Shown here piece by piece: positions 11,140 through 61,478 of a DNA stretch of 64,000 bases. Position 1 is the stretch's first letter. The number at the start of each line of letters is the position of its first letter. The translations under genes and the position numbers were made by a program. Under the pieces are notes generated by a model. That model was not told the origin of the DNA. It saw only the letters and a program-made list of their open reading frames with translations, and searched no databases. Source of the stretch: Impatiens glandulifera (lineage: Eukaryota > Streptophyta > Magnoliopsida > Ericales > Balsaminaceae); contig NC_061862.1 in assembly GCF_907164915.1 (NCBI RefSeq), positions 36,643,522-36,707,521 on the forward strand. The letters are read 5' to 3'.

Positions 11140-11945
11140 ATTCGCATGAAGAACGGGGAGTTAGTGGATAATTTTCCTATAAAATTGACATCTATCGTGA
11201 CTATTATCCTCTCTTTAGGAAAGAAGGTGGAGGAGATCCCCCATCGTCAAGAAGTTTCATAAAGTCGTACCACAAACATACCTGCAAATCGTTACCGCGA
11301 TCGAATAGCTTGGTGACTCGAGAAAATGATCGTCAAGGAGATTGTCGGTCGTCTTAAATTCCACGAGAAGAGACTTCGTGGCAACGGAGACCAAGAAGAA
11401 GAGAATCACTTTTTTTCTCACGCATGGTGAATGGATATAATGAATAAAGAAAAACGGAGAAGCCAATTTTTATTCCGGATCGTCGAGTCGCAACGACAAC
11501 GATGGAGATAACTAAGGTCGTGGTAAAGGGCGAGATTGTAGAGAAAGCTCACATTAAATCCCACAAAGATAAGAGCATAGTGAAGTGTTACACTTATAAA
11601 AAATATGATGATGCAAACCTCACTAACTTCTATGACAAGGAGATATCATTAATGTTTGTTGAGAGAGTGATGAACGCTTTGTCCGAAAAAAGGAAGCAAA
11701 CCTCGAAGAGTTCGTGCAAGAATCGTCCAAGGAAGAACTAAATGTGGTGTTACTCAATAAAGAGAAAGTCATGGCAAACCTCTTCGCAAGTGGCGATGAG
11801 TATAATCACACCGACATGTGGTACCTTGACAATGGAGCAAACAACCATATGACGGGTCATCAAGAGAAGTTCAATGAGATCGACTAGAAGATCACCGAAA
11901 ATGTGATGTTTGAAGACGAAAGCAAGGTGCACAGGTTTCTTATTC
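11140..11945 (+). repeat. Inverted copy of copia 1 gag (left arm of hairpin)
   Basis: This stretch is gag in the plus sense, opposite to the rest of the element. A plus-strand frame at 11502-11741 contains 'DKSIVKCYTYKKYDD' and 'LTNFYDKE', which repeat the minus-strand gag at 12592-11990. It begins near GAAGAACGGGGAG (11147) and runs to the protease-like 'WYLDNGANNHMTG' near 11818-11856. The mirror arm is about 11985-12800, with about 40 bp between the arms. Confidence 0.85.
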
Positions 11946-11984
11946 CAGCTTGCGGAAAATTTTGTGTGAGCAGAGATACCGTGT

Positions 11985-12906
11985 TTGAACTTCACATTTT
12001 CAATGATCTTCTTGTCGAGCTCATTGAACTTATCTCGATGGCCCGTCATATGATTGTTTGATCCATTGTCGAGGTACCATACGTCAGTGTGATTATACTT
12101 ATTGCCACTTGCGAGGAGCTTCGCCATGACTTTATCTTCATTGAGCAACATCACCTCTAGTTCCTCCTTGGACAATTTATGCACAAACTTTTCGAGATTT
12201 GTCTCCTTGTCTTCGGACAATGTTTTTATCACTCCCTCAACAAACATTAATGATGGTTCCTCGTCATAGAAGTTAGTGAGGTTTGCCTCATCGTCGGGCC
12301 TTTTGTTAGGGCACTTAGTCGCATAGTGCCCGTACTTTTGATAAGCGTAACACTTCACTATGCTTTTGTCTTTGTTGGGCTTAGTGTCTTCTTGTCGAGG
12401 TGAGCTTTCTCTATGACCTCGCCCTTTGTCACGACCTCGGTTATCTCCACCGTTGCCACCGCGATCCGGTGATCTAGAAGAAAAATTGGCTTCTCCATTC
12501 TTCTTCATTCTTGACATCCATTCACCATGCGTGAGAAAGATGTGTTTCTCCTCTTCTTGGTCTCCGTAGCCGCGAAGTCTCTCCTTGTGCACTTTCAGAT
12601 GACCAACAATCTCCTCGACAATATATTCTTGAAGTCACCAAATTGCTCGATCGCGGTAACGATCTGTGTATGTTTGTGGTACGGCTCTAAGGAACTTCTT
12701 CATGATGGAGATCTCCTCTACCTTCTCTCCCAAAGAGCGAATACCAGTCACGATGGATGTCAATTTCATGACGAAATCATCCACCTACTCCCCGTTCTTC
12801 ATGCAAATTGCCTTGAAGTGTGTCTTCAAGGTTTGCATTTTTGCCTCATTGACTCTCTCCACTCAAACATGCATCATCTTTAACGTCTCACACACTAGTT
12901 TGGCAG
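11985..12906 (-). pseudogene. copia 1 gag, 3' part (right arm of hairpin)
   Basis: Minus-strand gag. A UBN2-type stretch lies near 12560-12900, with 'HKERLRGYGD' near 12590. A degenerate zinc knuckle 'CYAYQKYGHYATKC' lies near 12310-12350; the second cysteine of CX2CX4HX4C is a tyrosine. The protease-proximal 'WYLDNGSNNHMTGH' lies near 12040-12080. Beyond about 11980 the open frame runs into the antisense arm and its sequence there is meaningless. The upstream part of gag continues at 15070 after the CACTA insertion. Confidence 0.85.
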
Positions 12907-17205: not shown

Positions 17206-20200
17206 ATGATCGAAGAAGTCGAAATACACGACCTTACGAAGATCCTCTCTTCGCCGGACAGAGATTTCCTCATTCGAAACAACGGAGAACAGGTAGTTTC
17301 ACATTGTTAATTTTCATATTTATTGTTTATATGATTTTGATTGATTGATCGATCGATCGATGGAGGCTGCTTCATACTTGGGTTTTCTTAAATTGATTGT
17401 TTTTTCATAGTAAACTAACAGATACGACTTGGGTTTCTGCTCAATCCATTTACGCCGTCGTCTTACCCATAAGGTGTTTGTAGAAATGCATGCTTAGGAT
17501 CAATGGTGTAGCGAGTTGGGTTGGGTAGAATTTTTAAAAATTTATATATATATATATATATATAGGTTAAAGTAGAAGGAATATATATATATATATATAT
17601 ATATAATTTTGAAAAGTATCCGGATTGTCGGGTCGAGAGCTGTGGTTAATTTAAATATATATGTAAGAGTAAATGAATATTTGGGTCGGATTTTGAGTTG
17701 ACCCGTCCATAAACATAAAACGGTTAAAAATAAATTAAAAATACTATAGATATGTTTTGATCTCGCAACCTAACAAAAATAAGTACAACTTTTTAACCAA
17801 CTAGGCTAATAATATTTTATATTTTAAATTCATACCAAATTTTATGAATGCGGGACGTTGTAACAATATATTTTCCCATGTGCATCGTACGAGGATATTC
17901 CTAGATATATATAATAGTGTTACTGTTTTCTAATAATTATATTATTCTAATTTTATTAAAATAATTATTATTAATATTTTATTTATATAAATAATATTTT
18001 TTTAATATACAAATATTTATTATAATATATAAATTTTAATTAATATATAAATAAAATTTATTTATATATGTTAAAATATAAAAAATTATATATAAAATAA
18101 TTTAAATTATATAATAGTGTTATTAATTCTTTTAAAACTATGTTTATATGATAATTATATATTGTTATTTTTTTTTTATTAATTTTAATATAATTAATAA
18201 TATAAATTACTTATAAAATAAAGATTAAAATAATAATTTATATAAATATAAAAATAAAATAGTCTTTTATATTTTTTTTAATTTTAAATAAATTAAAATT
18301 TTGATATATTATTTATTCTTTAAAACAATTTATATGCATTAATATTTTATAAATTTCTTTTAGATTGTCTATTCACTTAATAATATGATTTTGTATATTT
18401 GTCATTATTTTTATTTATTTTTTTATATTTTCACACAATTAAACTATACTAATTAGACTTTCAAATTTTATTTATTTATATATGTATATGTATATGAGGA
18501 ATGATAAACTCAACGAAAGATTCAACGAAAGCAAATTCAACGAAAGCAAATTCACGAATCTGACGTGACGCTCTTTTTGGGTCCCGAAATGACCGTTTCG
18601 GGACATTATGAAGCCGTTTTGGTACCTGAAATAAGTATTTCGGAATATTAAAAAAAAATTTCTCTCTCCTACCAAAATGTTATGCAACGTTTATTCATTC
18701 GTGAACTTGTTTTCGTTGATTTTATCATTTTTCATATATAGTTAGTTTTTTTTTTGTTTAAAATTAAATTAATTTAACTTTTCATATTTTTAAACCAAAA
18801 TTTTCATCAACTATGTATTTTTAAATTTATAAATTTCTTTTTTAAATTGAATACTTTTTTTATCTTTGATTAGATTTCGTATATTTATTTTATTTTAATA
18901 AAGGTATTCGTGGAACGATTAAATTAATATTTTCGCTTATTATATTTATACTATTTTCAGCCAACTGAACAAAAAAAATTCCAAGATTCACCCTTGCTTA
19001 GGATGTTTTCAAATTCTTTGACTTTACAGGTTAAACTTGACAGTTTGAAAGGGAAGAAAGTTGCTTTGTATTTCTCTGCATCATGGTCTGTTCCATGTAA
19101 ATGGTTCACCCCAACTTTGGTGGAAGCCTATAATGAGCTGACATCTAAAGGAGATTTTGAGATTATATTTGTTTCAGTACATGATGATGAAGAATCTTTT
19201 ACATGTGACTTCTCCAAGATGCCATGGCTTGCAATTCCCTATTCAGATTATGAAGTTCGTAAGAACTTGGATTCGGTTTTTGAGGTGAACAATTTACCTT
19301 TTCTGGTGTTCATCGACAATACCGGAGAAGTTGTGACGAATGAAGGAGTCGCGTTAATCCAAGAATATGGAGCGGAGGCATATCCTTTCACTGTAGATTC
19401 TTTGGCTGTGATAAGAGTGGAGGAAGAAGAAGCTAAGAAGAACCAATCTCTGAATTCTCTCCTAGTTTCCAAGTTCAGTGATTTTGTCATTTCATCTGAT
19501 GGGAAGAAGGTGCGTGCGTGTGTCTTCTTCATCGAGCTTGAATGCTTAAATTTGCTTATTTGTATCAAATTTCATAAACTCAAACTGCATCTCTTTTTTA
19601 CTTGGTGTAGATTCCTGTTTCTTCTCTTCAAGGGAAAACGATTGGTCTATATTTCTCCAACTCTTCCTATGGAAGATGCATCAAGTACACTAAAGATCTA
19701 GTGAAAGTGTACAAGGAAATACAGAAAGGGAACGAATCAGAATTCGAGATGATCACAATACCGTTGGACGAAGAAGAAGATTCATTCAAAGAAGATCTCA
19801 AGAGTCTCCCATGGTTGGCATTGCCTTTCAAGGACAAGAGAGCCGGAAAGCTGGAGAGGTACTTCGAACTCATCTCTCTTCCCAAACTTGTCATCATCGG
19901 TCCAGACGGAAATACCCTTCAGCAAGACGTAGCCGACATTGTGGGAGAACACGGTTCCCAAGCCTATCCATTCACGGCGGAAAGGTTAGATCACCTCGAA
20001 GAGCTGAAAAGGAAGAAACTGAAAAGGAAGAAACTGAAAAAACTGAAAAGGAAGAAACTGAAAAGGAAGAAACTCGAATCCCAAACGTTAGAAGAGGTTT
20101 TAGTCTCTGAAGGAGGTCTGGATTTCGTAATCGGAAAAGAGGGAGTAAAAGTTCCAATTTCCGACTTAGTCGGGAAGACCATCCTTCTCTACTTCTCCGC

Positions 20201-20819
20201 ACATTGGTGTCATCCTTGTCGCGCTTTTATGCCGAAGCTGACAGAGGTTTACAACCAAATAAAGGAGAAAGATGCAGAATTCGAGCTGATTTTCGTCTCT
20301 AGCGATCGCGATCAAGCCTCGTTCGATGACTACTTCGCGACTATGCCTTGGCTGGCATTACCATTCGGGGACGAGAGGAATGAGGGGCTTTCGCGCCTGT
20401 TTAAGGTGCGTATGATTCCGACCCTTGTGGCACTTGGGAAGACTGGGAAGACTGTTTCGACGAAGGTAAGGGAGATGGTGATGTCGCATGGAGCGAAAGC
20501 ATATCCGTTTGATGAGGAGAAGATGAAGGAGATAGAGAAGGAGATAGAGAAGGAGTTTAATGATTTGGTGAAGGGGTTGCCCGAGAAAGTTAAGGTTGAG
20601 AGTCATGAACACGAGCTGGTGTTGATGAGACGGGAGGATTTCTTGTGTGAGGAATGTGACGAGTCTGAGTCTGAGTATGCGGAAGTTTGGTCTTATTATT
20701 GCGATGATTGTTGTTTTCACCTTCATCCTAAATGTGCTTTGAAAGAAGAAGAGAAAGTGGCAGAAGAAGAAGGGAAGGAGGAGGAGAAGGATGGTGCTGG
20801 TGGTCCTAAAGAAGAATGA
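17206..20819 (+). CDS. NRX1: Nucleoredoxin (NRX1-like), three exons
   Basis: Inferred exons are 17206-17292, 19030-19509 and 19611-20819, with GT-AG phase-0 introns, giving 591 residues (plant NRX1 proteins are a little under 600). The start 'MIEEVEIHDLTKILSSPDRD' and 'FLIRNNGEQ' are typical of NRX1. Three thioredoxin-like domains follow. Domain 1 has 'SASWSVPC' (residues 45-52, the first catalytic Cys replaced by Ser49). Domain 2 has 'NSSYGRC' (206-212, degenerate). Domain 3 has 'SAHWCHPC' (385-392), an intact WCxPC site. The C-terminal end (about 521-568) is a DC1 zinc finger with paired CxxC and 'HLHPKC'. Family members are cytosolic and nuclear thiol reductases that work with NADPH-thioredoxin reductase. 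A lysine-rich repeat (about 321-345) expands the linker before domain 3. No stop or frameshift was found. Confidence 0.9.
17583..17904 (+). mobile_element. Helitron-like fragment in nucleoredoxin intron 1
   Basis: It shares an extended match, in the opposite orientation, with the Helitron at 35975-36721, including GGGTCGAGAGCTGTGGTTAA near 17630 and CAACCTAACAAAA near 17767. It ends CTAG at 17901-17904 after a decayed hairpin (GTGCATCGTAC). The base after CTAG is A, not the T expected, and the 5' end is lost in a (TA)n run, so the borders are approximate. Confidence 0.65.
18491..18738. mobile_element. MITE in nucleoredoxin intron 1
   Basis: About 28-bp imperfect terminal inverted repeats: TATATGAGGAATGATAAAC at 18491 and the inverted match ending at 18738 (TTTATCATTTTTCATATA). 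No coding capacity. A short tandem repeat (ATTCAACGAAAGCAA) lies next to the left end. The superfamily was not determined; the ends and a possible TA target are compatible with a Tc1/mariner or other MITE. Confidence 0.6.
20004..20075 (+). repeat. Coding minisatellite, 15-bp unit CTGAAAAGGAAGAAA
   Basis: Four full units and one shortened unit (CTGAAAAAA) in frame within exon 3. They encode repeated LKRKK and insert about 24 strongly basic residues between domains 2 and 3. Confidence 0.95.
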
Positions 20820-21860: not shown

Positions 21861-22357
21861 GTGGGTCAATACATTAATTAATTATTTTAATTATAATAAA
21901 ATATAATATTAATTAATTAAATTTAATAAAATAATAATATATTTAATTAAATATAAAAAAATTATTCATATAATGAATTAAGTTGGAATTTTTATGATTT
22001 GAAATAAAATTTTGTTTGTACTTTTTTTTTATGTGAAATAGAGAGAAAAAATGTTCGTCACTATATCATTGACTTGAGAAAAGAATAAATTGTGAGGAGA
22101 GAAGACTGAATAGAGAAGAAATTTGTTTTTTTTTTCTAACAAATTATATTGCGTCACTCTATTCATAATTTGGGTTTACCCAAACCCAACCCTAACCCAA
22201 AATATTAATTTGGGTTGGTTAATTTGGGAAGGGTTGAGTTGAGTATGTGTTGGGTTTAATTTGGATTGGGTTAGGATTACCCAAATTATATAAATTTAAT
22301 TTAATTCTCTATTATTAAACCAATATAAATCAATCATTTTCCAACTTGAAGTCGAAC

Positions 22358-23185
22358 ACATTTTTGACATTTTAACATGTTTTTCACACGTTTAACACGT
22401 TTTAACATGTTTTCACACATACAATATGTTTTTCACACGTTTAATATGTTTTTCACGTTTTTGGCACGTTTAACACATTTTGACATGTTTAACACGTTTT
22501 CACACCAATAACATTTTTTTCACGTTTAACACGTTTTTGAAATATTTAATATGTTTAACACGTTTTTGACAAATTAAAAAGGTTTTTCACGTTTTTGTCA
22601 TGTTTAACACGTTTTTGACATATTTAATACGTTAACACGTTTTAAATAAGTTTAACACGGTTTTTATGTTTTTGACACGTTTAACACGTTTTGATATTTT
22701 AACACGTTTAACACATTTTTGATATGTTTAACACGTTCAACACGTTTTTTACACATTTAACACATTTTTCACACGTTTAACATGTTTTTCACATTTTTTA
22801 CATGTTTAACACGTTTTTGACATATTTGACACGTTTTCACACGTTAACACGTTTTCCACATTTTTGGCATGTTTAACACGTTTTTGACATGTTAAACATG
22901 TTTAACACGTTTTTAGCTCATTTAACATGTTTTGGTATGTTTAACATGTTTTTCACGTTTTTGGTATGTTTTTGGGACGTTTAACACGTTTTGACATTTT
23001 AACAGGTTTTTATACATTTAACAAAATTTTGATATGTTTAACATGTTTTTTTTGCACGTTAACACGTATTGACAAGTTGTAACACGTTTTTGACACGATG
23101 AACACGTTTTTGGCATGTTTAACATATTTTTCATAATTTTGGCACGTTTAACATATTTTTTCATGTTTTGGCACATTAAACATAT
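22358..23185 (+). repeat. Array of a roughly 20-bp TTTAACACGTTTTTGACATG-like motif
   Basis: Dozens of degenerate direct copies of TTTAACACGTTTTTGACA or TTTTTCACACG variants, with unit length varying around 10-20 bp. The array ends where the motif flips orientation near 23185. Confidence 0.85.
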
Positions 23186-24180
23186 GACAAACGTATTAAA
23201 CGTGTCAAAAATGTGAGAAACATGTTAAACGTGTCAAAAACATGTTAAACATTTCAAAAATATTTTAAACGTGTTAAACGTGTCAAAACGTGCCAAAAAT
23301 GTGGAAAACTTGGAAAACGTGTTCAACATGTTAAACGTGCCAAAAATTTGAAAATGTGTGAAAAATGTGTTAAACATGTTAAAAACGTGTTAAGCATATT
23401 AAAAACGTGTTAAACGTGTCAAGCATGTGAAAAACATGAAAAACATGTTAAACGTGTCAAAACGTGTTAAAAAATATGAAAAATGTGTTAAATGTGTCAT
23501 AATAGTGAAAAATGTGTCAAATGTGTTAAAAACGTGTTAAACATGCCAAAAACATGAAAGACGTGTTAAATGTGCCAAAAATGTGTTAAACGTGTCAAAA
23601 ACGTTTTAAACATGTTAAACATGTTAAACGTGTGAAAAACATATTAAATGTGTCAAAACATGGAAAACTTGGAAAACTTGGAAAACATGTTAAATGTGTC
23701 AAAACGTGCCAAAAACGTGAAAAATATGTTAAACGTGCCAAAAACGTGTGAAAACATGTTAAATATGTTAAAAACGTGTTAAACGTGTCAAGAATGTAAA
23801 AAACGTGAAAAACATGAAAAACATGTTAAACGTATTAAATATGTTAAAAGTGTTAAACGTGTCAAGAATGAGAAAAACGTGAAAAACATGTTAAACGTGT
23901 CAATGTGTCATAATCGTGAAAAACGTGTCAAACGTGTCAAAAACATGTTAAACGTGTTAAACATGCTAAAAACATAAAAAAAAAACGTGTTCAATGTGTC
24001 AAAAATGTGTTACACGTGCCATAAACGTGTTAAACGTGTCAAAAACGTGTTAAACGTGTGAAAAACATATTAAACGTATTAAAAACGTGAAAAACATGTT
24101 AAACGTGATAAAAATGTGAAAAATATAAAAAACGTGTTAAACAAATAAAAATGTGTTAAACGAGTCAACTACATGTTAAA
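23186..24180 (-). repeat. Mirror array: AAACGTGTCAAAAACGTGTT-like motif
   Basis: The reverse complement of the motif in the left array, repeated for about 1 kb. Copies differ from each other, so pairing with the left array would be imperfect but extensive. Confidence 0.85.
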
Positions 24181-37305: not shown

Positions 37306-37417
37306 AGTTGACTCAGTTTATGAACAAATTTAATACATTAATTACTTTTGTTTGTATTAGTTAGCATGTTCCCCAACATGACTTTTATTTTTATTTTATT
37401 TTTTTTGGTAAGATTTT

Positions 37418-39497
37418 TGTTGGGTCAAATTATTTTGACTAAGTGTTGAAATAATTTACCCTCTGATATTTTGATGATGAAATAACTTATGAGTTTTGAT
37501 ACAGGTGTATTAAGATAACATGTTATTAGACTTGGATCTAATGAGGGTCATTAGACTGATTTTGATTTTCATTCGCATAAAATTAGACGCAAGTCTAATA
37601 GAATTAGACGTACAGTCTAACTCATCGGAGTTAGACGTGTAGTCTAATAGATGTATAGAATTAGACGGATGTTCTAATGAATACACAGAATTAGACGCAA
37701 GTCTAATAGAATTAGACGTACAGTCTAACTCATCGGAGTTAGACGTGTAGTCTAATAAATGTATAGAATTAGACGGATGGTCTAATGAATACACGGAATT
37801 AGACGCAAGTCTAATAGAATTAGACGTACAGTCTAACTCATTAGAGTTAGACGTGTAGTCTAAAAGACATTTAAAGAATTAGACGAATAGTCTAATGAAT
37901 GCACGGAATTAGACGTGAGTCTAATGGAATTAGACGTAAGTCTAATATATTTGGAATTAGACGTACAGTCTAACTCATCGGAGTTAGACGTGTAGTCTAA
38001 TATATTTGTAATTAGACGGGTAGTCTAATTAGTGAAAGTTAGACGTGAGTCTAACTCCTTCAGACAAGTTTAAGGTAGAACCGGAATTAAACGTGTCAGT
38101 CTAACTAAGTGGAGTTAGACGTGCCGGTCTAATGGTTATTTAATAATTAGACGGGTAGTCTAATTAGTGAAAGTTAGACGTGAGTCTAACTCCTTCAGAC
38201 AAGTCTGAGGTAGAACCGGAATTAGACTTGTCAGTCTAACTCAGTGGAGTTAGACGTGGCAGTCTAATGGTTATTGTAATTAGACGCGAGTCTAATTCTA
38301 TTAGACCAGGCGGTCTAATAGACGTTTCTCATTAAAAGCAGTTGACTTATTTCATTAGACTGATTTTCACAAATCCGTCTAACTGAAATACGTTTAATGC
38401 TCAGTTTAAGAAGTACGCTTGAATATAGCATTTCTCCTTCCCACGTGCTATAGCTGTACCCTACTCTTGCTCCACTTTCCAGTGAAGATTAGTACAACAG
38501 CTATATGCATCCAATCAAGGAATGCCACGTAAGAGAATTTTCCTCACATTACTCATTTTGCAGGTACATCCCTAATGGAATATTCGGCGCACCACCAGTT
38601 CAGTACGGCCACGATCCTTGTGCTCAAAACCTGCTGTGTACAATGGAGGCTTTCCAATGGAAGAGTGCCACGTATCATTCTTGAAGATTCGACCGTTAGC
38701 TCCTACTCAGTGTTTAACAAATCCTAAGAACAACGGACAATTTGTCTCACGAACAAGCGAATACAAACGAACAAGCAATCTGATTTTGCAGAGAGAGACT
38801 ACTCAATCATCTTGCTTACTGAACTTATTCTGTGAAGCTTCTTTCTGATTGTACTGTGTGTGAATCGAGAGATAGAGCTAGAATCAAAAACACATTTAGC
38901 TGAGTGATATTCTTCATCTTGTAATTGAACAGAAAGTGTTCTGTTCAATAGTGAGCTAAGTGTGTGTGTAAACTGTATTTGATTCTCATCATATTATAGT
39001 GAATCCTTCCGGTGGTTGGAAGAAGGGGTGACGTAGGAGAGTTTCTCCGAACATCCATAAACAAAATGTTGTGTTCTTCATTTTTTTGTCATCTTTTCAT
39101 ATTTCATCTTGTGCTTCAAACTCAAGTAAACAATTCCGCCTTTAATCTGTTTCAAGTGTTTACACAAGTTTGCGTAAAATAGAAAGTGAATTAAATCCCT
39201 AACAAGATTTCTTTCAAACTGTTTTTCATATGCCTTCATCCTTAGCCAGACCCCCGTCTCTAACGATAAAGCCGATCCTATCAACGTGTCTTCAATTCTT
39301 TTGAGGAATGACTAATTTATTTTTCGGTGGGAAAGAGGACTCAAACAGACATCATTAAAAGACAGCTGTCCGAAAATCCAGAAGATGAAGAGTCTAATTA
39401 CACCAGTAGTTAGACGTTTTATTCTCCTTTTCACATTTTCAACTTCTTTTTGAAAATCAGTCTATTAGACGTGTACGTCTAATTATGCTATAACAGC
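37418..39497 (+). repeat. Left inverted arm
   Basis: 2080 bp mirrored by 40246-42287. The 76-codon frame at 38618-38848 recurs in the other arm at 40892-41122 with a few changes. It has no known domain and sits inside the LTR-like part, so I do not call it a gene. The LTR end is uncertain, perhaps near 39287. Confidence 0.85.
37528..38320 (+). repeat. Array of TTAGAC...GTCTAA mini-palindromes, left arm
   Basis: Dozens of roughly 20-bp units such as TTAGACGTACAGTCTAA and TTAGACGTGTAGTCTAA, each a self-complementary stem with a 5-nt loop. Larger units of about 100 bp repeat within the array (for example 37582-37680 and 37690-37790). Confidence 0.93.
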
Positions 39498-39794
39498 ACG
39501 TGAGACACGTGTGTCTGATTAGACGTGAGCATCCTCTTGCTCATGACGTAAAAATGTCTAACGTTTATTAGACGTGTCCGTCTATTAGACGCATCCGTAT
39601 AACCAAGCAGGTTAAAATAACCAAGACAATGATTTCATATAAAGGTGAAACTGCTAAGGTAGATGTTCGTCTAAGTAACTGTTTTTCTCAAACTCTGAAT
39701 CCTTGGGACAAGTTAAGACCTCCGTCTTTCATATCTGTTCAGTTGCATTTTGAACGATATGTTCCCCTTTAGTTTATGCACGCAATTACATCAA

Positions 39795-40200
39795 TCAAGA
39801 TCAACAAGACCTAGCATATTTCTAAAATGAGAAAACTTAGCTTCCGGTAGAGGTTTCGTGAAGATGTCTGTAGTTTGTTGATCTGTAGGAACATGTTCAA
39901 GACGAATTTGCTTTTGATTGACGTGTTCTCAGATGAAATGATGCCTGATTTCAATATGCTTTGTCCGAGAATGCAGAACTGGATTGTAGGATATTGCGAT
40001 AGCACTTGTGTTGTCGTAGAAAATTGGAGATTCATCAGCCTCAATCCCATAGTCTCTGAGCTGTTGTTTAATCCACAAAACTTGAGAACAACAACTACCA
40101 GCTGCAAGATACTTTGCTTCTGCTTTAGATGTTGCGACAGATGTCTGGTTCTTGCTGAACCATGTGATTAGGCGATCTCCAAGGAACTGACAAGTTCCAC
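39795..40200 (-). pseudogene. copia RNase H end in the loop of the inverted element
   Basis: The minus strand reads 'FLGDRLITWFSKNQTSVATS', then 'AEAKYLAAGSCCSQVLWIKQ', 'DNTSAIAI' and 'HSRTKHIEIRHHFI', the typical end of a copia RNase H. An in-frame TGA follows 'HHFI' and then the terminal 'DIFTKPLPEAKF' motif. No RT or integrase is present. It shares orientation with the right arm. Confidence 0.88.
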
Positions 40201-40245
40201 TTGTGCCTTTTATATCAATTTTGCATAATTAATTTTTCTATCACT

Positions 40246-42287
40246 GTTATAGCATAATTAGACGTACACGTCTAATAGAATGATTTTCAAAAAGAAGTTA
40301 AAAATGTGAAAAGGAGAATAAAACGTCTAACTACTGGTGTAATTAGACTCTTCATCTTCTGGATTTTCGGACAGCTGTCTTTTAATGATGTCTGTTTGAG
40401 TCCTCTTTCCCGCCGAAAAATAAATTAGTCATTCCTCAAAAGAATTGAAGACACGTTGATAGGATCGGCTTTATCGTTAGAGACAGGGGGCCTGGCTAAG
40501 GATGAAGGCTTATAAAAAACAGTTTGAAAGAAATCCTGTTAGGGATTTAATTCGCTTTCTATTCTACGCAAACTTGTGTAAACACTTGAAACAGATTCAA
40601 GGCGGAATTGTTTACTTGGGTTTGAAGCACAAGATGAAATATGAAAAGATGACAGAAAATGAAGAACACAACAATTTGTTTATGGATGTTCGGAGAAACT
40701 CTCTTACGTCACCCCTTCTTCCAACCACCGGAAGGATTCACTATAATATGATGAGAATCAAATACAATTTACACACACACTTAGCTCACTATTGAACATA
40801 ACACTTTCTGTTCAATTACAAGATGAAGAATATCACTCAGCTAAAGGTATTTTTGATTCTAGCTCTCTCTCTCGATTCACACACAGTACAATCAGAAAGA
40901 AGCTTCACAGAATAAGTTCAGTAAGCAAGATGATTGAGTAGTCTCTCTCTGCAAAATCAGATTGCTTGTTCGTTTGTATTCGCTTGTTCGTGAGACAGAT
41001 TGTCCGTTGTCCTTATGATTTGTTAAATACTGAGTAGGAGCTAACGGTCGAATCTTCAAGAATGATACGTGGCACTCTTCCATTGGAAAGCCTCCATTGT
41101 ACACAGCAGGTTCTGAGCACAAGGATCGTGGCCGTACCGAACTGGTAGTGCGCCGAATATTCCATCAGGGATGTACCTGCAAAACGGGTAATGTGAGGAA
41201 AATTCTCTTACGTGGCAATACTTGATTGGATGCATATAGCTGTTGTACTAATCTTCACTGGAAAGTGGAGCATGAGTAGGGTACAGCTATAGCACGTGGG
41301 TAGGAGAAATGCTAGATTCAAGCGTACTGCATTTGTGAAAAACATTCTAATGAAATAAGTCAACTCCTTTTAATGAGAAACGTCTATTAGACCGCCTGGT
41401 CTAATAGAATTAGACTCGCGTCTAATTACAATAACCATTAGACTGCCACGTCTAACTCCACTAAGTTATACTGACACGTCTAATTCCGGTTCTACCTCAG
41501 ACTTGTCTGAAGGAGTTAGACTCACGTCTAACTTTTACTAACTAGACTACCCGTCTAATTATTAAATAACCATTAGACCGGCACGTCTAACTCCACTGAG
41601 TTAGACTGACACGTATAATTCTGGTTCTACCTCAGACTTGTCTGAAGGAGTTAGACTTACATCTAACTTTCACTAATTAGACTACCCGTCTAATTACAAA
41701 TATATTAGACTACACGTCTAACTCCGATGAGTTAGACTGTACGTCTAATTTCGAATATATTAGACTTACGTCTAATTCCATTAGACTCACGTCTAATTCC
41801 ATGCATTCATTAGACTATCCGTCTAATTCTTTACATGTCTTTTAGACTACACGTCTAACTCCGATGAGTTAGACTGTACGTCTAATTCTAATAGACTTGC
41901 GTCTAATTTCGTGTATTCATTAGACCATCCGTCTAATTCTATACATCTATTAGACTACACGTCTAACTCCGATGAGTTAGACTGTACGTCTAATTCTATT
42001 AGACTTGCGTCTAATTCCGTGTATTCATTAGACCATCCGTCTAATTCTATACATCTATTAGACTACACGTCTAACTCCGATGAGTTAGACTGTACGTCTA
42101 ATTCTATTAGACTTGCGTCTAATTTTATGCGAATGAAAATCAAAATCAGTCTAATGACCCTCATTAGATCCAAGTCTAATAACATGTTGTCTTAATACAC
42201 CTGTATCAAAACTCATAAGTTATTTCATCATCCAAATATCAGAGGGTAAATTATTTCAACACTTAGTCAAAATAATTTGACCCAACA
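40246..42287 (-). repeat. Right inverted arm
   Basis: 2042 bp, the inverse of the left arm with scattered substitutions and small indels. The central junction is near TGTTATAGCATAATTAGACG (40247). Confidence 0.85.
41382..42180 (-). repeat. Array of TTAGAC...GTCTAA mini-palindromes, right arm
   Basis: The mirror image of the array at 37528-38320, with slightly different unit numbers and a few point changes. Confidence 0.93.
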
Positions 42288-42560
42288 GTTTTCTTAATAG
42301 GTCAATACATTAATTAACTATTTTAATTATAATAAAATATAATATTAAATAATTAAATTTAATATAATAACAAATTATTTAATTTAATATAAAAATATTA
42401 TTATTTTTTTGTAAATGAATATATTTTATTTGAAGAATAAGCTGGAATTTTTACAATATGAGATGAAACTTTATTTGTATTTTTTTATCTCTACATATTG
42501 GATATATTTTATGTCTCATTAATTTTTTATTAAAACAAATTATTTGTAAATATATGAAAC

Positions 42561-48865: not shown

Positions 48866-49918
48866 TGTTAGGATCGGGATCGCCGATAGGGGACCGAAGT
48901 CCGGCTAATCGGTGATCGCTTTACAACAACACACACCAATTGACACTAATCCGGTTAAAAATTAGAACCGTTCTTAACACTACATAGGTTGTCACAGACT
49001 CTTGAACTGAGTTCAAGGACGGAAGTGTCTGTTTCAACCTGAAGCAAATGCACACGATTCATTTAATGGAAGAGAGTATGAGGAGATCGGTTTAAATGAA
49101 GTGAATTCGATTCGGTTGAGATGGGGAATAATCTGTTCGGTTAGCTTAGTTACAAAAAGTAATTGAAGAACACATAACACAGATTTTTATGGATGTTCGG
49201 AGCAAAACCCTCCTACGTCACCCATTCTTCTCAAAACGGTGAGAATGATATTTACTAATGGAATATTCAACAATACGATCGAGTCTTATTTACTGCTCGA
49301 TATACACTTTACAATACTCACACAGTATTGTAATACACTTTAATTTTTACAACTATTTCACTTTGATCAAAGAAACTGTATGAATACAGATGCTTTTTAA
49401 GTTTGATCAGGTGAAAGAGAGAAGATAGCGCGCGCATTCGGAATACTTTCTTTAATGCCCTTGGCTTCCTTTTATATAGGAAATATGACAACGGTCATAT
49501 TTCTCTCTCATCTGGTGATTGGTCAACTGAGCCGGTCAGAGTAGGTAACTTTTCTTTTTGTACATGTGGCAGCCACGCATGAGGGCGGTCGCCTGCACCG
49601 TGAAGGTTTCTTGTGAGCTTGGATAAAATCTTCAATCATTAGATTTCTGCATGCCTTATCTTAGAACCTTCTTTTGCATATTCCCAAGATATCTTCATTA
49701 CGTCATCTTCAGAATATTCATCACTTTGAATAATCTTCTCGTTGGCCTTAAGATCTTCAATGCATTGAGCTAGCCGAACCTTTTCGGTTAGCATCTCTAG
49801 CAAGGCTTAAGTTTGAGCCGATCCGGCTTGACTTCAAGATTGTAGGCCGGGAGTTTTAAAGAACTTAAGTTTACTTGGTCGGTTTTTAGAAAAGTTTATT
49901 TTTAGAAATTTCTCATCA
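48866..49918 (-). repeat. LTR of the long-LTR copia family, minus orientation
   Basis: It runs from TGTTAGGATCGGGATCGCC to TTTCTCATCA on the plus strand. It is followed by ATTTCTCCCTTTTTGATG, the reverse of a polypurine tract, which makes it the 3' LTR of a minus-strand element. Its first part is the inverse of the end of the LTR at 59725-61478 (CCCCTATCGGCGATCCCGAT), so both belong to one family but lie inverted. Confidence 0.83.
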
Positions 49919-52819: not shown

Positions 52820-53274
52820 TGTTACGATCCTCAAATAAGAAAGCGCACCTTCCTCGGTCCTATGGAACAATTGGGCCAGATTTATGTTTCCGTTTATTAA
52901 TTCATCTTTTATCTTCTCTTTTATTTCTTTAAAACCGAATTCTGTTATTTTGTAAGTTGTTATAACAAATTTGTAACCGACTCTTGGGTACTTCAGCCTC
53001 TTTAAATGCTGATGCCCACCCCACTTTTTGGGGCTATGAATTGAATATTTTGGAACTTGGTGTTTAAGTTATCTCTCGGCCCTCCTCCCCCTTCTTGGAC
53101 CGCTAGGTGTGATCTAGTGGTATTTCTCTCCTCCCCTTCGGCTCTTCTCTCCCTAACCTCGAATTCTCCTCTAATTCTATGTCCGCTGCGCTAGAGTGTT
53201 GAATTCCATCATCAAGAACCCGTTTCTTGAATTAAAGAACTTGAAAGGCTCGGCCATAATTAAAAGTCCTAACA
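52820..53274 (+). repeat. 5' LTR of the gypsy element
   Basis: 455 bp, TGTTACGATCC to AGTCCTAACA. The same length as the 3' LTR and almost identical to it. Confidence 0.96.
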
Positions 53275-53277
53275 TCT

Positions 53278-53289
53278 TGGTATCAGAGC
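53278..53289 (+). promoter_or_regulatory. Primer-binding site of the gypsy element
   Basis: TGGTATCAGAGC, complementary to the 3' end of initiator tRNA-Met, three bases after the LTR. Confidence 0.9.
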
Positions 53290-53304
53290 TGGCCGATTCT
53301 CAAC

Positions 53305-56300
53305 ATGGTAGAAACTCGCCAGCAATCGGAAATGGATGCGCTCAAGACCCTGATTGAAAACTTGTCCCAGCAAACAGCAGCAATGCAAGCTGCCATAGAC
53401 CGTAGATTTGATGTGGCCGAAGAAAGAATGGCTGCCCTTGAGAGCGGGGCATCTGGAAACATGCAAGAACCCCGCCACAGACCCTATGATGATAATTCTT
53501 GCCACGGTCCTTCACCATTTAGGCCCCCGCACCCTGGCCAGAACCGCGATCAACACTATGCTCCTCCTACTCGGCTAACCAAGGTCGATTTTCCTCGGTT
53601 TGATGGGTCGGATGTCGAGGGATGGCTAATATCTGCCGAGCAATTTTTCAGGGTGGATAAAACTAGGGATGCCACGAAACTAGAAATTGCACCCATTCAC
53701 TTTTCTGGCGAAGCAAGAATGTGGTATGGATCTTATCTACAAAATCGAGATCATATGGAGGCCCTATCTTGGGACGTGTTCAAGAGAGATCTTATGACGC
53801 AATTCGGACCCTCTATACACGACACTCCAATGAGACAGTTGATGAATCTAAAACAGGTTGGGTCGGTTCAAGATTATAATCTGCAATATATGTCGATCTC
53901 TCAAAAACTCTACAACATGCCAAGGGAGTACGTCATAGATTGTTATTTGTCCGGTCTAAGGGAGGAAATTGCAAACTGTATCAGGTTGCGATTCCCGGAT
54001 TCTCTAAACGAAGCCATGGCCATGGCTAAAGTCCAAGAAGCAACGTACCGGTCTTTAATGAGCAATGGAAATTTGTACAGCACCGAGCCACCACTACTGC
54101 CCAATCCGAGCATCGTCAAACCAAGTTGGCAAAGCACGAACAAAGCCCCATACATCAAGTCGAGCTCGTCATATGGGTCTTCTTCGAGTACAAATCAGGG
54201 CCATGTTAAGCAATTGGACCCAGCCTTAATGGATGAAAAGAGAAGGAAAGGCCTATGCTACTCTTGCGACGAAAAATGGCAACCAAATCACATGTGTAAA
54301 TCAAAGTTATTCATGGTCTCGGCCAATCAAGAAAATCAAGAACCCGACCAAGAACCTGCTCCGGAGGTAGATCTTGATGATTCTCTTTTGCAGCCTGACG
54401 CAGTGGAAGAATTAGCCATATCCTTACATGCATTGACGGGTTCTAAAACCTTTCAAACGCTCCAGATTCTTGGTAAAATTGGGAACCTACCGGTCGTGAT
54501 CTTAATTGATACAGGCAGCACTCATAATTTCATTAATAGCAGGATAATGAAGAATATTAGCCATGACATACTTCCTACCCAAGTGCTCTCGGTCCGAGTG
54601 GCAGACGGCTCTAACATTTTATGCTCTAGTTTCTGCCAAGATCTGAAATGGTCTATGGAAGGCAAGTTTTATCAAGCAAATATGAAGGTATTGACAATGA
54701 CAGGGTATGATATTGTGCTAGGAATCGAATGGCTGATTACTCTAGGCCCTTCAAAATGGGACTTTGAAAAATTAACACTCTCTTTTAAAAGGGAAGGGAT
54801 AACCACGATCTTGCAAGGCATACCCCATACACAAATCAATTTAATGAAGGGTGATCACCTAGAGAAGCTATTAAAGAAAGGCAATGTTGCTGCCATGATC
54901 CAAATAAGAAGTGAAAACGAAGCACAATTTTTCTCGCTCCATACAAGGCCACCAGATGATATTCCTGAAGACCTTCAGCAAATGCTAGATGATTTCAGCC
55001 CAATATTCCAGCAACCTGAGAACTTACCACCCGCCAGGGAACAAGATCACCGTATCCCATTAAAGGAAGGCACAGAAGCTGTATGCATGCGTCCCTACCG
55101 ATATCCTGCCCTGCAGAAGAGAGAAATTGAACATTTGGTCAACGATATGCTAGACAGGGGAGTCATAAGAAGAAGCCACAGCTCTTTTGCCGCCCCTGTG
55201 GTGTTGGTCCGAATGAAAGACTTATCATGGAGAATGTGTATTGATTATAGGCGGCTCAACTCAGCAACCATTAAGGATAAGTTTCCTATCCCGGTCATTG
55301 AAGAGTTAATGGAAGAATTGCATGGGTCCAAGTTTTTTTCCAAGCTCGATTTGCGCTCAGGATTCCACCAGATAAGGATGCACCCAGGTGACTGCCAGAA
55401 AACAGCATTCTATACTCACGAAGGCCTGTATGAATTTTTGGTGATGCCCTTCGGCCTAACCAATGCACCATCCTCCTTCCAAAGCTTAATGAACGCGACC
55501 CTGAAACCATTTTTAAGGAAGTTTGTGCTAGTATTTTTTAATGATATCCTAGTATACAGCCCGAGCTGGAAGGAACATATCCAACACCTACATAAGGTAC
55601 TTTCAATATTGCAACATAACGAATTATTCCTTAACAAGGGGAAATGTAATTTTGGGTGCAAGCAAATTGCCTATCTTGGCCATATCCTTGACGAGAATGG
55701 TGTAGCCACAGATCCAGCAAAGTTAGAAACAATGAGCACATGGCCAGTTCCAGAATCTCCTAAGCAATTGAAAGGGTTCCTTGGCCTGACCGGATACTAT
55801 AGAAGATTTATAAAAGGCTACGGCTCTATAGCACGACCACTCACGGCCCTGTTGAAAAGGGGTCAGTTTGAATGGAATAAAGAAGCTGAAGATGCATTTA
55901 TATTGTTAAAGCAGCGTATGCTTTCCCCTCCGGTCCTGGCGCTTCCAAATTTCGATATTCCCTTTGTAGTAGAGACCGATGCAAGCGGAATTGGTATAGG
56001 GGCAGTTCTAATGCAAGAAGGTCGACCAATTTCATTCATAAGCAAGGGTATTGAACCAGAAAAGTTACCATCATCCACGTATGAAAAAGAACTCATGGCC
56101 TTAACTTTTGCGGTGGAGAAGTGGCGATCATACCTTAGGTACAAGCAATTTATTGTAAAAACCGATCATGAATCCCTTAAATACTTACTGGAACAAAGAG
56201 TTCAAACCCCGGCTCAAGAGAAATGGCTCTATAAATTGGTGGGATATGACTTTGTTGTTCAATATAAAAAGGGAAAGGAAAATTTGGTGGCAGATGCTTT

Positions 56301-57219
56301 GTCTAGGCGGGTAGCAGGTGTTCAATGTGCAGGAATTTCGGTCTATCACACTGCTGTTCAAAAACAGATTCAGGAAAGCTATGAAGAAGATCCCAACTTG
56401 ACCAAAGTCATTTGTGAAATTCTGGCTAATGTTGATTCTCACCCAGAATGCTCATACGACCACGGGTTATTGAGGAAAAGGGACCGGCTGGTGGTGGGGA
56501 AGAATAACGACCTCAGAAATACCTTAATTGCAGCCATGCACTTGGGAGCAGAAGGGGGGCATTCGGGGACTCTGGTCACCCAGAAGAAAATGCAACTTGT
56601 TTACTATTGGCTAGGAATGCTTAAAGACATTAGGGAATTTGTTCGGACCTGTGAAGTGTGCCAAAAAAATAAATCTGATAACTCAGCATATAGGGGCCTG
56701 CTTCAGCCCTTAGCAATTCCCAATCGATTCTGGGAATCGGTCTCCATGGATTTCATTGAAAGCTTGCCTAAGTCAAAAGGTAAAAGTGTTATATTTGTGG
56801 TAGTTGACAGACTATCGAAGATGGCCCACTTTATGAGTCTGAAACACCCCTTTTCTGCCCGGACAGTAGCTGAGTTATTTGTGGACAACGTTTCCAAGCT
56901 CCACGGAATGCCAACAACCATCATTAGTGATCGGGGCAAAGTGTTCTTAAGCACCTTTTGGCAGGAATTTTTAAGTATACAAGGAGTAAAACAAGCTTTA
57001 TCTTCAGCTTATCACCCCCAGACGGATGGCCAGACCGAGATAGTCAACAAATGCTTGGTCACTTATCTACGCTGCATGGATGGCCAGACACCAAAAGATT
57101 GGGTACGCTGGTTGCCTTTGGCTGAATGGTGGTACAACACTAATTTTCATACAGCAATACAAACAACTCCTTTTGAAGCCATATATGGATATCCCCCCCG
57201 GTCCACACACCGTATGTAG
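53305..57219 (+). CDS. gypsy chromovirus gag-pol polyprotein, ends early by frameshift
   Basis: 1304 codons from the first ATG after the primer-binding site. A coiled start (about 5-55) is followed by gag (about 95-250) and a zinc knuckle 'CYSCDEKWQPNHMCK' (about 318). The protease 'LIDTGSTHNFI' lies at about 400. The RT carries 'DYRRLNSATIKDKFPIP' and 'FSKLDLRSGFHQIRM'. RNase H follows ('ETDASGIGIGAVL', about 890), then an integrase zinc site ('CEVCQKN') and a core with 'ISDRGKVF' and 'HPQTDGQTE'. The RT catalytic motif reads 'VFFNDILVY': the first Asp of the usual pair is Asn (AAT at 55540, residue 746). A one-base loss in the C tract at 57193-57199 ends the frame. Confidence 0.95.
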   Translation: MVETRQQSEMDALKTLIENLSQQTAAMQAAIDRRFDVAEERMAALESGASGNMQEPRHRPYDDNSCHGPSPFRPPHPGQNRDQHYAPPTRLTKVDFPRFDGSDVEGWLISAEQFFRVDKTRDATKLEIAPIHFSGEARMWYGSYLQNRDHMEALSWDVFKRDLMTQFGPSIHDTPMRQLMNLKQVGSVQDYNLQYMSISQKLYNMPREYVIDCYLSGLREEIANCIRLRFPDSLNEAMAMAKVQEATYRSLMSNGNLYSTEPPLLPNPSIVKPSWQSTNKAPYIKSSSSYGSSSSTNQGHVKQLDPALMDEKRRKGLCYSCDEKWQPNHMCKSKLFMVSANQENQEPDQEPAPEVDLDDSLLQPDAVEELAISLHALTGSKTFQTLQILGKIGNLPVVILIDTGSTHNFINSRIMKNISHDILPTQVLSVRVADGSNILCSSFCQDLKWSMEGKFYQANMKVLTMTGYDIVLGIEWLITLGPSKWDFEKLTLSFKREGITTILQGIPHTQINLMKGDHLEKLLKKGNVAAMIQIRSENEAQFFSLHTRPPDDIPEDLQQMLDDFSPIFQQPENLPPAREQDHRIPLKEGTEAVCMRPYRYPALQKREIEHLVNDMLDRGVIRRSHSSFAAPVVLVRMKDLSWRMCIDYRRLNSATIKDKFPIPVIEELMEELHGSKFFSKLDLRSGFHQIRMHPGDCQKTAFYTHEGLYEFLVMPFGLTNAPSSFQSLMNATLKPFLRKFVLVFFNDILVYSPSWKEHIQHLHKVLSILQHNELFLNKGKCNFGCKQIAYLGHILDENGVATDPAKLETMSTWPVPESPKQLKGFLGLTGYYRRFIKGYGSIARPLTALLKRGQFEWNKEAEDAFILLKQRMLSPPVLALPNFDIPFVVETDASGIGIGAVLMQEGRPISFISKGIEPEKLPSSTYEKELMALTFAVEKWRSYLRYKQFIVKTDHESLKYLLEQRVQTPAQEKWLYKLVGYDFVVQYKKGKENLVADALSRRVAGVQCAGISVYHTAVQKQIQESYEEDPNLTKVICEILANVDSHPECSYDHGLLRKRDRLVVGKNNDLRNTLIAAMHLGAEGGHSGTLVTQKKMQLVYYWLGMLKDIREFVRTCEVCQKNKSDNSAYRGLLQPLAIPNRFWESVSMDFIESLPKSKGKSVIFVVVDRLSKMAHFMSLKHPFSARTVAELFVDNVSKLHGMPTTIISDRGKVFLSTFWQEFLSIQGVKQALSSAYHPQTDGQTEIVNKCLVTYLRCMDGQTPKDWVRWLPLAEWWYNTNFHTAIQTTPFEAIYGYPPRSTHRM

Positions 57220-57826
57220 CAGGTGACTCGAGAGTGGAAGAGGTGGATGTATCGCTAACGGCCAGGGAAGCCTCACTCCAACTCATAAAATTCCATTTGA
57301 AAAGAGCCCAGAATCGTATGAAGCAGCAGCAGGACAAGAAGAGGAAAGATGTCACGTTGCAAGTGGGTAGCTGGGCATTGGTGAAATTACAACCATATAG
57401 ACAACGTTCTGTCTAGAAGTTATTCCACAAGCTCTCACCAAAGTATTTTGGGCCATTTGAAGTGTTGGAAAGGATTGGGGAAGTTGCTTACAAGCTGGAA
57501 CTCAGGGCCGACAACAGAATACATAATGTCTTCCATGTCTCACAATTAAAATCATTCAAAGGTACGCCTGCTGCTGTAGAAAATATTCCCCAACTTAGCA
57601 CACAACCAAACAGTACCGGAAAAATTGTAGGTGAACAAGACATAATGGTGCAAGGAAAAATGAAAAAACAGATGCTAATCAATTGGGATGGGGCCCAAGC
57701 AGAAGACCAAACTTAGGAGGATGCAGAAGTTATAAGTATTCAATGCCCAGAGATGCTAGCTGCAAGGAGGCCAACAAGACAACACTCTCTTCGTCGCGAT
57801 CGACGAACTTCTGATGGGGGAGATGA
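57220..57826 (+). pseudogene. gypsy pol C-terminus, out of frame and with two stops
   Basis: It continues the polyprotein in a second frame: '[20 protein letters not shown]' and '[11 protein letters not shown]' are the usual integrase tail. '[12 protein letters not shown]' then 'EDAEVI' is the core of a chromodomain-like end, hence the chromovirus assignment. TAG stops interrupt it at 57414-57416 and 57714-57716; the latter stands where chromodomains have Trp. Confidence 0.88.
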
Positions 57827-58281
57827 TGTTACGATCCTCGAATAAGAAAGCGCACCTTCCTCGGTCCTATGGAACAATTGGGCCAGATTTATGTTTCCGT
57901 TTATTAATTCATCTTTTATCTTCTCTTTTATTTCTTTAAAACCGAATTCTGTTATTTTGTAAGTTGTTATAACAAATTTGTAACCGACTCTTGGGTACTT
58001 CAGCCTCTTTAAATGCTGATGCCCACCCCACTTTTTGGGGCTATGAATTGAATATTTTGGAACTTGGTGTTTAAGTTATCTCTCGGCCCTCCTCCCCCTT
58101 CTTGGACCGCTAGGTGTGATCTAGTGGTATTTCTCTCCTCCCCTTCGGCTCTTCTCTCCCTAACCTCGAATTCTCCTCTAATTCTATGTCCGCTGCGCTA
58201 GAGTGTTGAATTCCATCATCAAGAACCCGTTTCTTGAATTAAAGAACTTGAAAGGCTCGGCCATAATTAAAAGTCCTAACA
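57827..58281 (+). repeat. 3' LTR of the gypsy element
   Basis: 455 bp, identical to the 5' LTR by eye except the base at 57840. Confidence 0.96.
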
Positions 58282-59724: not shown

Positions 59725-61478
59725 TGTTATAATATAATTGTTAGAACTTATGAAAAGTTTAATGAATAGATAAAACTAAGTTCAAATAAATATATATGTT
59801 AAACCGCTAAATCGTATCAAGTATATTAATTGGTTCTAATATAACAAGAAGGTGCTGTAGTGTAGTGGTAAACACTCTTGCCTGTCACACAAGTGATCAG
59901 GGATTGAATCTCACCGACTATAAATAATACTTAAAGTTTTTCTATTTCAGGGAAGCTAAGCAATACCGGAAATTAGCTATAGGCGAGATCGGCTCGGCCG
60001 TGGATATTCGATAGATGACTTCGATTTTTAAAACTAGACTTAGGGCAACAAAAAAAATATATCGAACTTTTTCTACCGAGGCTAGGACAGCCCAATCCTC
60101 GGGGGGTCGGCTCTGCGTAGTAGTCCTTAATAGTTAAAGGGTTAGAGTTACAATTTTTATTGTTTTTATTTTATTTTTATAGTATTTTAGAAGGTGTGAT
60201 ATTAATAAAATTAATAACATAAGCTAATCATAACTTCTTTTATTATTATGGAAATGATATATTGTTCGAAGTGGAGATCGATCAACCGACACTTAATGCT
60301 CCTGAAGAGGAGATTAGTCAACCAATATTTAATAAAGCATGGCCGGTTAGCTGTCAACAGACTTATCTAAGTCTAGAAGCAACCTCCAGGCAGTAGGAAC
60401 AACTTCAACCGAATCAACTCAAACACATTGGAAGTTAAACCAGATCGGCTCAAATTCAGGCCCGACTAGAGGATGTTCGGCTGGCTCAACACATTGAAAA
60501 TCTTAAAGCCAATGGGAAGATTATTCAAAGTTATGAATAATCTGAAGATGGCGTAACGAATATATCTTGGAATATGCAAAAGAAGTCTCAAAGAAAAGGC
60601 ATGCGACAATCTAATAATTATAGATTTTATCTAAGTTCACAAGCAACCTTCACGGTACAGGCGACCGTCTCATGCATGGTTGCCTACTCCAAACCGGCAC
60701 GGCTGACCAATCACCGGATGAGAGAGAAATATGACCGTTGTCATATTTCTATTATAAAAGGAGGAAGTCGGAGAGCTGAAATATAGAAAGACGCTCCAGG
60801 ACGTGCTATCAGATTAGAAAGCTAGAGAGAGAAAAACTCTTTCCGCGATCCTTTCACTCTTGCGAACATACCTTGACAAATCTACCAAGCTATTGAGTGA
60901 TAAGAACGAACTGAAAAGTTCTGTGTATTTACATATTTGTAAAAGTGTATTACAATACTGTGTGAGTATTGTAAAGTGAACAACGAACGGTAAATAAGAC
61001 TCGGTCGTATTGTGTATTGTGTTGTGAAATATTCCTTAGTGAATATCCTTCTCACTGTTTGAGAAGAAGGGGTGACGTAGGAGAGTTTGTTTCGAATATC
61101 CATAACAATTTGTGTCTTGTGTTCTTCATTTATTTTTCGGTCACCAAACCAACCGAACCGGTTTTCCCCAATTCTAACCGAACTGAATCACTACTTATTC
61201 CAACCGAACCGAATTACTACTTAACTAACCGAACCGTTTTTTCCTTCATTCTAACTGGTTCTTCTCTACTCTTTTCACCAATCGATCTGTGTGTTGCTTC
61301 AAGCTGAAACAAACTACTTCTGCATTTGAACTCGATTCAAGAGTTTGTGACAGCTTGTGTGGTGTTAAGAACGGTTCTAATCTTTAACCCAATTAGTGTT
61401 AGTGTGTGTGTGTGTGTTGTTGTAAAGTGATCACTTTAGCCGTACCCCAGTCCCCTATCGGCGATCCCGATCCTAACA
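59725..61478 (+). repeat. LTR of the long-LTR copia family, plus orientation
   Basis: It starts TGTTATAATATAATTG after a polypurine tract and ends GATCCCGATCCTAACA before a primer-binding site. It is therefore at once the 3' LTR of the derivative on its left and the 5' LTR of the copia on its right. It is 1754 bp long, against 1053 bp for the inverted relative at 48866-49918; the second half matches, the first half does not. It contains GGGGTGACGTAGGAGAGTTT near 61068, shared with the arms of the inverted element. Confidence 0.82.
59851..59930 (+). repeat. tRNA-Asp-like sequence inside the LTR (possible SINE head)
   Basis: GTAGTGTAGTGGTA and CTTGCCTGTCACACAAG match the D-arm and the anticodon arm (GTC) of tRNA-Asp. 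The T-arm (GGATTGAATCTC) and the acceptor stem do not pair well, so it is not a working tRNA. A and B boxes are roughly kept. It is absent from the related LTR at 48866-49918. Confidence 0.55.

Follow-up and report, generated by a model that had tools for sequence, protein, structure and literature searches.

Self-integration of the complementary DNA (cDNA) of Ty elements in yeast and of the human immunodeficiency virus (HIV) yields inverted products with two long terminal repeats (LTRs), and the cited passages describe this process as suicidal, ending in circles (PMC4751563, PMC2644782). Sireviruses are Ty1/copia retrotransposons reported, in the cited text, only from plants (PMC3414828); their polypurine tract (PPT) octamer is printed as AGGGGGAG, and two elements have a variant with A as the last base (PMC2829016). 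Here, we analysed an inverted-repeat element of Impatiens glandulifera that occupies positions 37418-42287 of a stretch of 64,000 nt (hereafter the window; GCF_907164915.1, NC_061862.1, positions 36,643,522-36,707,521 of the forward strand), and which is known here from the assembled sequence alone. The locus is best explained as the chromosomal remains of one failed Sirevirus (copia) retrotransposition, i.e. as a one-off fossil and not as a mobile class of element. We consider it probable that a processed LTR end self-integrated in its own or a sister unfinished cDNA, that the growing end snapped back, and that the resulting palindrome with two unique 3' (U3) ends then integrated.

The element is a large inverted repeat (37418-39496 versus 42287-40244; BLAST identity 95.1% over 2080 columns), as proposed in an earlier note made from the sequence of the window. 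That note regarded the arms (2080 and 2042 bp) as LTR-like over their whole length, with TG...CA termini, placed the junctions at 39497/39498 and 40245/40246, and saw only a copia RNase H end in the loop. We searched the host genome (654 Mb, 1110 contigs), scoring in each search the best 40 places of a longer candidate list, and these limits had to be moved. With the left arm as the query (8135 candidates), the matches outside this locus never pass query position 1867, and we therefore set the LTR at 37418-39283 (mirror 42287-40457). Each arm thus consists of an LTR (1866 or 1831 bp) followed by 213 nt of linker from the interior of the element. The outer termini, TGTTGGG...CCCAACA, are exact U3 ends, and the inner TG/CA ends of the 2-kb arms are a coincidence. 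The RNase H is indeed present in the loop on the minus strand and is copia-type (its open part has 259 protein matches, the best with 77% identity), and it belongs to a longer native segment, 39284-40226, which is contiguous in 39 other genome places with 92-94% identity (best 40 of 4979 candidates). Consequently, 39497/39498 is no junction; the real one (junction 1, J1) is 39283/39284, and 40245/40246 adjoins the other real one (J2), which spans 40226-40244 and bears a filler. The density of the palindromic boxes per kb (18.8 in 39285-39497, 24.6 in 39498-39700, 0 in 39811-40245 and 0.41 outside the element) had pointed to a continuation of the arm into the left part of the loop, which the genome search confirmed. 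In the relative L031, RNase H and the 3' LTR enclose the segment, which lies 1329 nt upstream of the start of that LTR, and its orientation beside the LTR is opposite to that observed here.

Two LTRs of another Sirevirus-like family occur in the window, at 48867-49915 (minus strand) and at about 60431-61478 (plus strand); a primer site that differs by one change follows the second. Both have the same U5 (unique 5') block as the arm. In alignments, the 3' ends of these LTRs fall on arm position 39283; the scores, 40 and 36, exceed the best obtained with 2000 resampled sequences for each (33 and 32). These two LTRs, and then the genome copies, place the LTR end at 39283, which ruled out the ends considered at 39203 (TAACA) and 39497. 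The terminus itself reads CCTATCA (LTR end CCGATCCTATCA). The possibility that the 213-nt inner piece was a 5' leader was also ruled out, as there is no primer site at its start and it is native linker in the genome.

The assignment of the source family comes from the relatives. Their LTR ends were read in plus-strand LTRs, which gave both ends in 12 of the 29 other loci, the start alone in L022 and neither end in 16. Among the 12 LTR ends, the primer junction CA-ATTGG-TATCAGAGC (CA followed by ATTGGTATCAGAGC) is exact in L014, L018 and L026, and has one change in L019; it is present also in L064. On the other side, AGGGGGAA-AT (AGGGGGAAAT) precedes the LTR in four of the 13 other loci with a start read, and with one change in two more, while L031 has a polypurine octamer 10 bp before its 3' LTR. 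As these primer-site and PPT junctions match those of the cited Sirevirus description (PMC2829016), the source family is assigned by sequence to the Sireviruses (Ty1/copia). At this locus the primer junction is absent, and neither a PPT nor a primer site was found at the LTR ends; the primer 9-mer does have one-change matches in the U3 region of each arm, but these are on the wrong strand (42237, plus; 37468, minus) and are taken as chance.

Several lines of evidence characterise J1, where the LTR terminus CA is joined to antisense linker, in the left arm and again in the right one. First, in 26 of the 26 other loci printed, the sequence before base 39284 is linker and not LTR, mostly GAGAGAC before ACGTG. 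Second, no base is common to the LTR end and the native linker. Third, J1 is devoid of the ATTGG that comes after CA at the relatives' primer sites, as expected if integrase trimmed the LTR end, knowing that integrase removes the bases beyond CA (PMC2829016). Had a reverse transcriptase jumped from an untrimmed end, ATTGG would still be present, unlike at J1. Fourth, L031 has seven perfect palindromes of at least 10 bp in 2360 nt, and the centre of one of them, the 12-bp AGACACGTGTCT, is 2 nt away from J1. Hence, J1 appears best supported as the type of joint left by integrase strand transfer, and the sequence has the feature of autointegration in which a processed CA end is joined to internal DNA without homology.

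At J2, RNase H is joined to the second linker copy via a filler of 17 nt. The native sequence up to 40226 is TTTTGCAT, after which 26 relatives continue otherwise, most of them with CCTGCAT or CCTACAT. The first five nucleotides of the filler (AATTA) extend GCAT to a stretch of 9 nt that matches the arm, which was equalled by 3.75% of random 60-mers. The remaining ATTTTTCTATCA (12 nt) has one other exact match among the retrieved loci, in L042. A 10-nt microhomology at J2, GCTATAACAG, was considered as part of RNase H and abandoned: frameshift-tolerant alignment gave no support for it, and the relatives differ there.

Both junctions were searched with queries of 160 bases. J1 is spanned only by the two arms of this locus (best 40 of 1770 candidates); four other rows extend 6-19 bases beyond the LTR end, and the longest, L063, looks like an AT-rich chance similarity. 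J2 is spanned fully only by this locus (best 40 of 2001 candidates), with one weak extra row (C770, query 61-114, 82%). The junctions thus apparently exist in a single copy, for which the evidence is strong yet incomplete because only the best candidates were scored. As J1 occurs in both arms and nowhere else among the scored places, we conclude that both arms derive from a single molecule. The U3 array behaves accordingly: it aligns gap-free between the arms over 957 bp at 97%, whereas against the 29 other LTRs it requires 3-30 gap runs, the closest being L019 (three runs, four columns, 94.1%).

The arms have diverged since. Their global alignment contains 64 mismatches in 2041 aligned sites (3.1%; 39 transitions and 25 transversions) and four gap runs, including one of 35 nt. 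With up to 7 edits allowed, all 29 of the other LTR loci tested contain the 35-nt block, which the right arm has therefore lost. The Kimura two-parameter (K2P) distance of 0.032 corresponds to about 1.2 million years at a substitution rate of 1.3e-8 per site and year. Polarity, assigned only where the tandem array permits, indicates that of 26 array differences eight are new in the left arm, ten are new in the right one and eight are undecided. CG or CHG contexts, which make up roughly a third of C and G, contain 23 of the 39 transitions. These differences are the decay expected for an old methylated repeat.

The 5-mers that flank the element agree at four of five positions and are enclosed by TAAG...CTTA, the left flank ending with GGTAAG before its 5-mer and the right flank continuing with CTTAATAGG after its own. 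Agreement at four or more positions occurs by chance in 3.6% of random pairs from 1 kb of each flank. Such symmetry around a target duplication would suit the target preference of an integrase. The flanks also share a direct match of 13 nt, a length equalled in 6.7% of 300 resampled flank pairs; this match was not used. With the exact U3 outer ends, these near-matching 5-mers, to which the earlier note had pointed, make it probable that the composite entered as one unit, as that note suggested. The positions of all features are given in Table 1.

Table 1. Features of the inverted-LTR locus and of its flanks, in window coordinates.
Feature	Position	Strand	Basis
Left flank 5-mer, candidate target duplication	37413..37417	.	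ATTTT, direct reading
Left-arm LTR, 1866 bp, U3 end outwards, TTAGAC...GTCTAA box array in U3	37418..39283	+	Ends of genome copies
Linker part of left arm, native orientation minus	39284..39496	-	Genome copies
Contiguous native RNase H-linker segment	39284..40226	-	39 other genome places; neighbours in 26 loci
Worn internal PPT after RNase H (AGGGGGAA in L031 and L032)	39761..39772	-	
Copia RNase H, C-terminal part, cut at CKID, one nonsense codon, ends LGLVDLD-stop	39791..40225	-	
J2 filler, 17 nt: AATTA + ATTTTTCTATCA	40227..40243	.	Comparison with relatives
Linker part of right arm, copy of 39284-39496	40244..40456	+	Arm alignment, genome copies
Right-arm LTR, 1831 bp, U3 end outwards, 35-nt block lost	40457..42287	-	Arm alignments, relatives
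Right flank 5-mer, candidate target duplication	42288..42292	.	GTTTT, direct reading

From the anatomy observed, we infer the following course of events and the agents behind it. Integrase would already have trimmed the U5 end of an LTR to CA while the cDNA was still unfinished, and this end would have attacked the opposite linker strand of the same or a sister cDNA, thereby generating a strand that runs from U3-R-U5-CA (R, the repeated region of the LTR) into antisense linker and antisense RNase H. The linker, which lies between the internal and terminal PPTs (1157 and 2964 in L031), would have been double-stranded early and a ready target. The 3' end of this strand, located in RNase H, perhaps where minus-strand synthesis stood, would have used the GCAT microhomology to snap back, and would have slipped after copying 5 nt of the arm, gaining the filler. 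After re-annealing, synthesis would have continued through the linker piece and the LTR as far as the strand reached. The resulting palindrome would be linear and bounded by two U3 ends, and integrase could have inserted it with a 5-bp duplication. After insertion, the arms decayed separately. The weakest step is that both ends of one LTR have to be free, a state that plus-strand strong-stop DNA or LTR-LTR recombination could supply.

Several observations weigh against this proposal. The snap-back homology is just 4 nt (GCAT), and the candidate target duplication is imperfect. The LTR has neither PPT nor primer site, yet both its ends would have had to be free. The 12-bp palindrome at the J1 target is broken in L032. 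Finally, a tree built from the non-repetitive part of the LTR in 31 sequences pairs the two arms as sisters with a support of just 0.71, and their distance (0.041) is near that between the right arm and L014 (0.046); the family seems, from this tree, to have radiated star-like at about one time.

A purely chromosomal route, which we regard as unlikely, is the first alternative: an element inserted antisense in the linker of another copy would have been reduced to a solo LTR, and a break in RNase H would have been repaired in place by foldback. Plant genomes commonly contain nested insertions and solo LTRs. In yeast, foldback repair that involves microhomology and filler has been described (PMC11724301). 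However, an ordinary insertion leaves ACGTG on the U3 side too, whereas neither ACGTG nor linker, i.e. the partner joint, is found at either U3 end, where the flanks read outwards ATTTT (left) and AAAAC (right). Nor do the flanks consist of linker: only their AT-rich repeats matched the retrieved loci. Moreover, foldback should have copied beyond the U3 end into the flank, whereas the copy stops at the LTR terminus.

Slightly less credible still is an origin from read-through RNA. An antisense LTR nested in linker elsewhere would have driven transcription from R-U5 through antisense linker and RNase H. This transcript would have been reverse transcribed with template switches and snap-back, J1 being inherited from the source. 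Ordinary strand transfer would then account for both the processed CA joint and the free U3 end. Yet the J1 search (best 40 of 1770 candidates) returned no other locus, so that the source would have to be lost or outside the assembly, and the TATAWA motif was not found in the LTR.

An assembly or read artefact is improbable. Chimeric reads can produce palindromes, but these arms differ by 3.1% and by the 35-nt block, and the pattern of their decay, with changes on both arms and transitions in CG or CHG contexts, counts against a read chimera. We give even less credit to two independent insertions in opposite orientations, followed by deletion or recombination between them. The flanks and ends could come from separate insertions, and the LTR tree places the arms only slightly closer together than to L014; this scenario, including the recombination of two opposite copies evoked in the earlier note, leaves unexplained the same J1 in both arms, found nowhere else among the scored places, and the same gap-free array. 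That note's self-integration of a cDNA is, by comparison, the best-supported origin of J1. The least plausible alternative, a mobile foldback-like element made of LTRs, would fit the long inverted ends and internal tandem repeats that recall foldback elements, but the genome search across the real junctions found J1 in two arms and J2 at this locus only (best 40 places each), which speaks against the mobile or repeated class that the note had envisaged.

The element yielded little in family searches: Pfam assigned a family to none of five frames submitted and NCBIfam to none of two, the solved-structure search returned two matches (E 0.71 and 0.95), two pattern scans of viral contigs had no match, and protein searches with two LTR frames found none. 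Elsewhere in the window, a second inverted pair consists of two copia gag-protease-like copies of about 76% identity, which lie tail to tail about 60 bp apart (11140-11918 and 11980-12808). The open frames at 18928-20819 (plus strand) resemble what we take to be a nucleoredoxin gene. An AT-rich satellite of ACACGTTTTT-type units occupies 22357-24180, with its two halves oppositely oriented. An apparently young and complete gypsy element (52820-58281) comprises an open frame of 1319 amino acids between 455-bp repeats of 99.8% identity, with an exact primer site, TGGTATCAGAGC, at 53278.

If our proposal is correct, this chromosomal fossil, with junctions resolved to the base, would demonstrate the heritability of self-integration products, and would record the attacking end, the target position and the later folding of the strand. 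The signature of J1 (a CA end followed by internal DNA, with no ATTGG) can be searched for in any plant genome to count such events. The 2-kb inverted LTR pair might also be a hairpin source of small RNAs. More speculatively, self-integration of plant copia elements may sometimes be heritable, an integrase-accepted snap-back palindrome giving an inverted-LTR locus, which could yield a long hairpin silencing its own family; we hold this to be doubtful.

Among known systems, the autointegration products of retroviruses and Ty1 share with this locus a processed CA end joined, in inverted orientation, to internal DNA of the same family (PMC4751563, PMC2644782). The locus is unusual because these products are described in the cited passages as circles and dead ends, whereas it is chromosomal, linear, palindromic, truncated in RNase H and devoid of the partner U3 joint. 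No title on an integrated palindromic autointegration product was found in the literature, a statement made at the level of titles and not a claim of absence from print. With Sireviruses, the locus shares the primer-site and PPT junctions of its relatives and the palindromic boxes in U3 and linker. A single CCCCC run, 28 nt before the LTR end, is a candidate for their C-rich integrase signal. The locus differs from Sireviruses by its inverted LTRs, by the absence of primer site, PPT, gag and most of pol, by a box core that is TTAGAC...GTCTAA instead of CGG-CCG, and by the TATAWA motif, not found in the left LTR. Exceptions are described among Sireviruses: Tnd-1 lacks the CGG core, and the TATA box is missing from two elements (PMC2829016). 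DIRS1-like retrotransposons also have inverted terminal repeats around retroelement sequence, but the RNase H here is copia-type, no tyrosine recombinase was seen by eye among the frames of at least 80 amino acids in the 4.9-kb element, and the locus has a candidate target duplication, which DIRS1-like elements are described as lacking (PMC3266345). Dispersed copies with the same termini and loop, as foldback elements have, were not found among the best 40 places per junction. Foldback inversions at DNA breaks share with this locus the snap-back copying primed by microhomology, but those described in the cited text are mostly of 5-34 bp (PMC11724301), whereas here a 2-kb arm was copied, and the copy stops at the LTR terminus.

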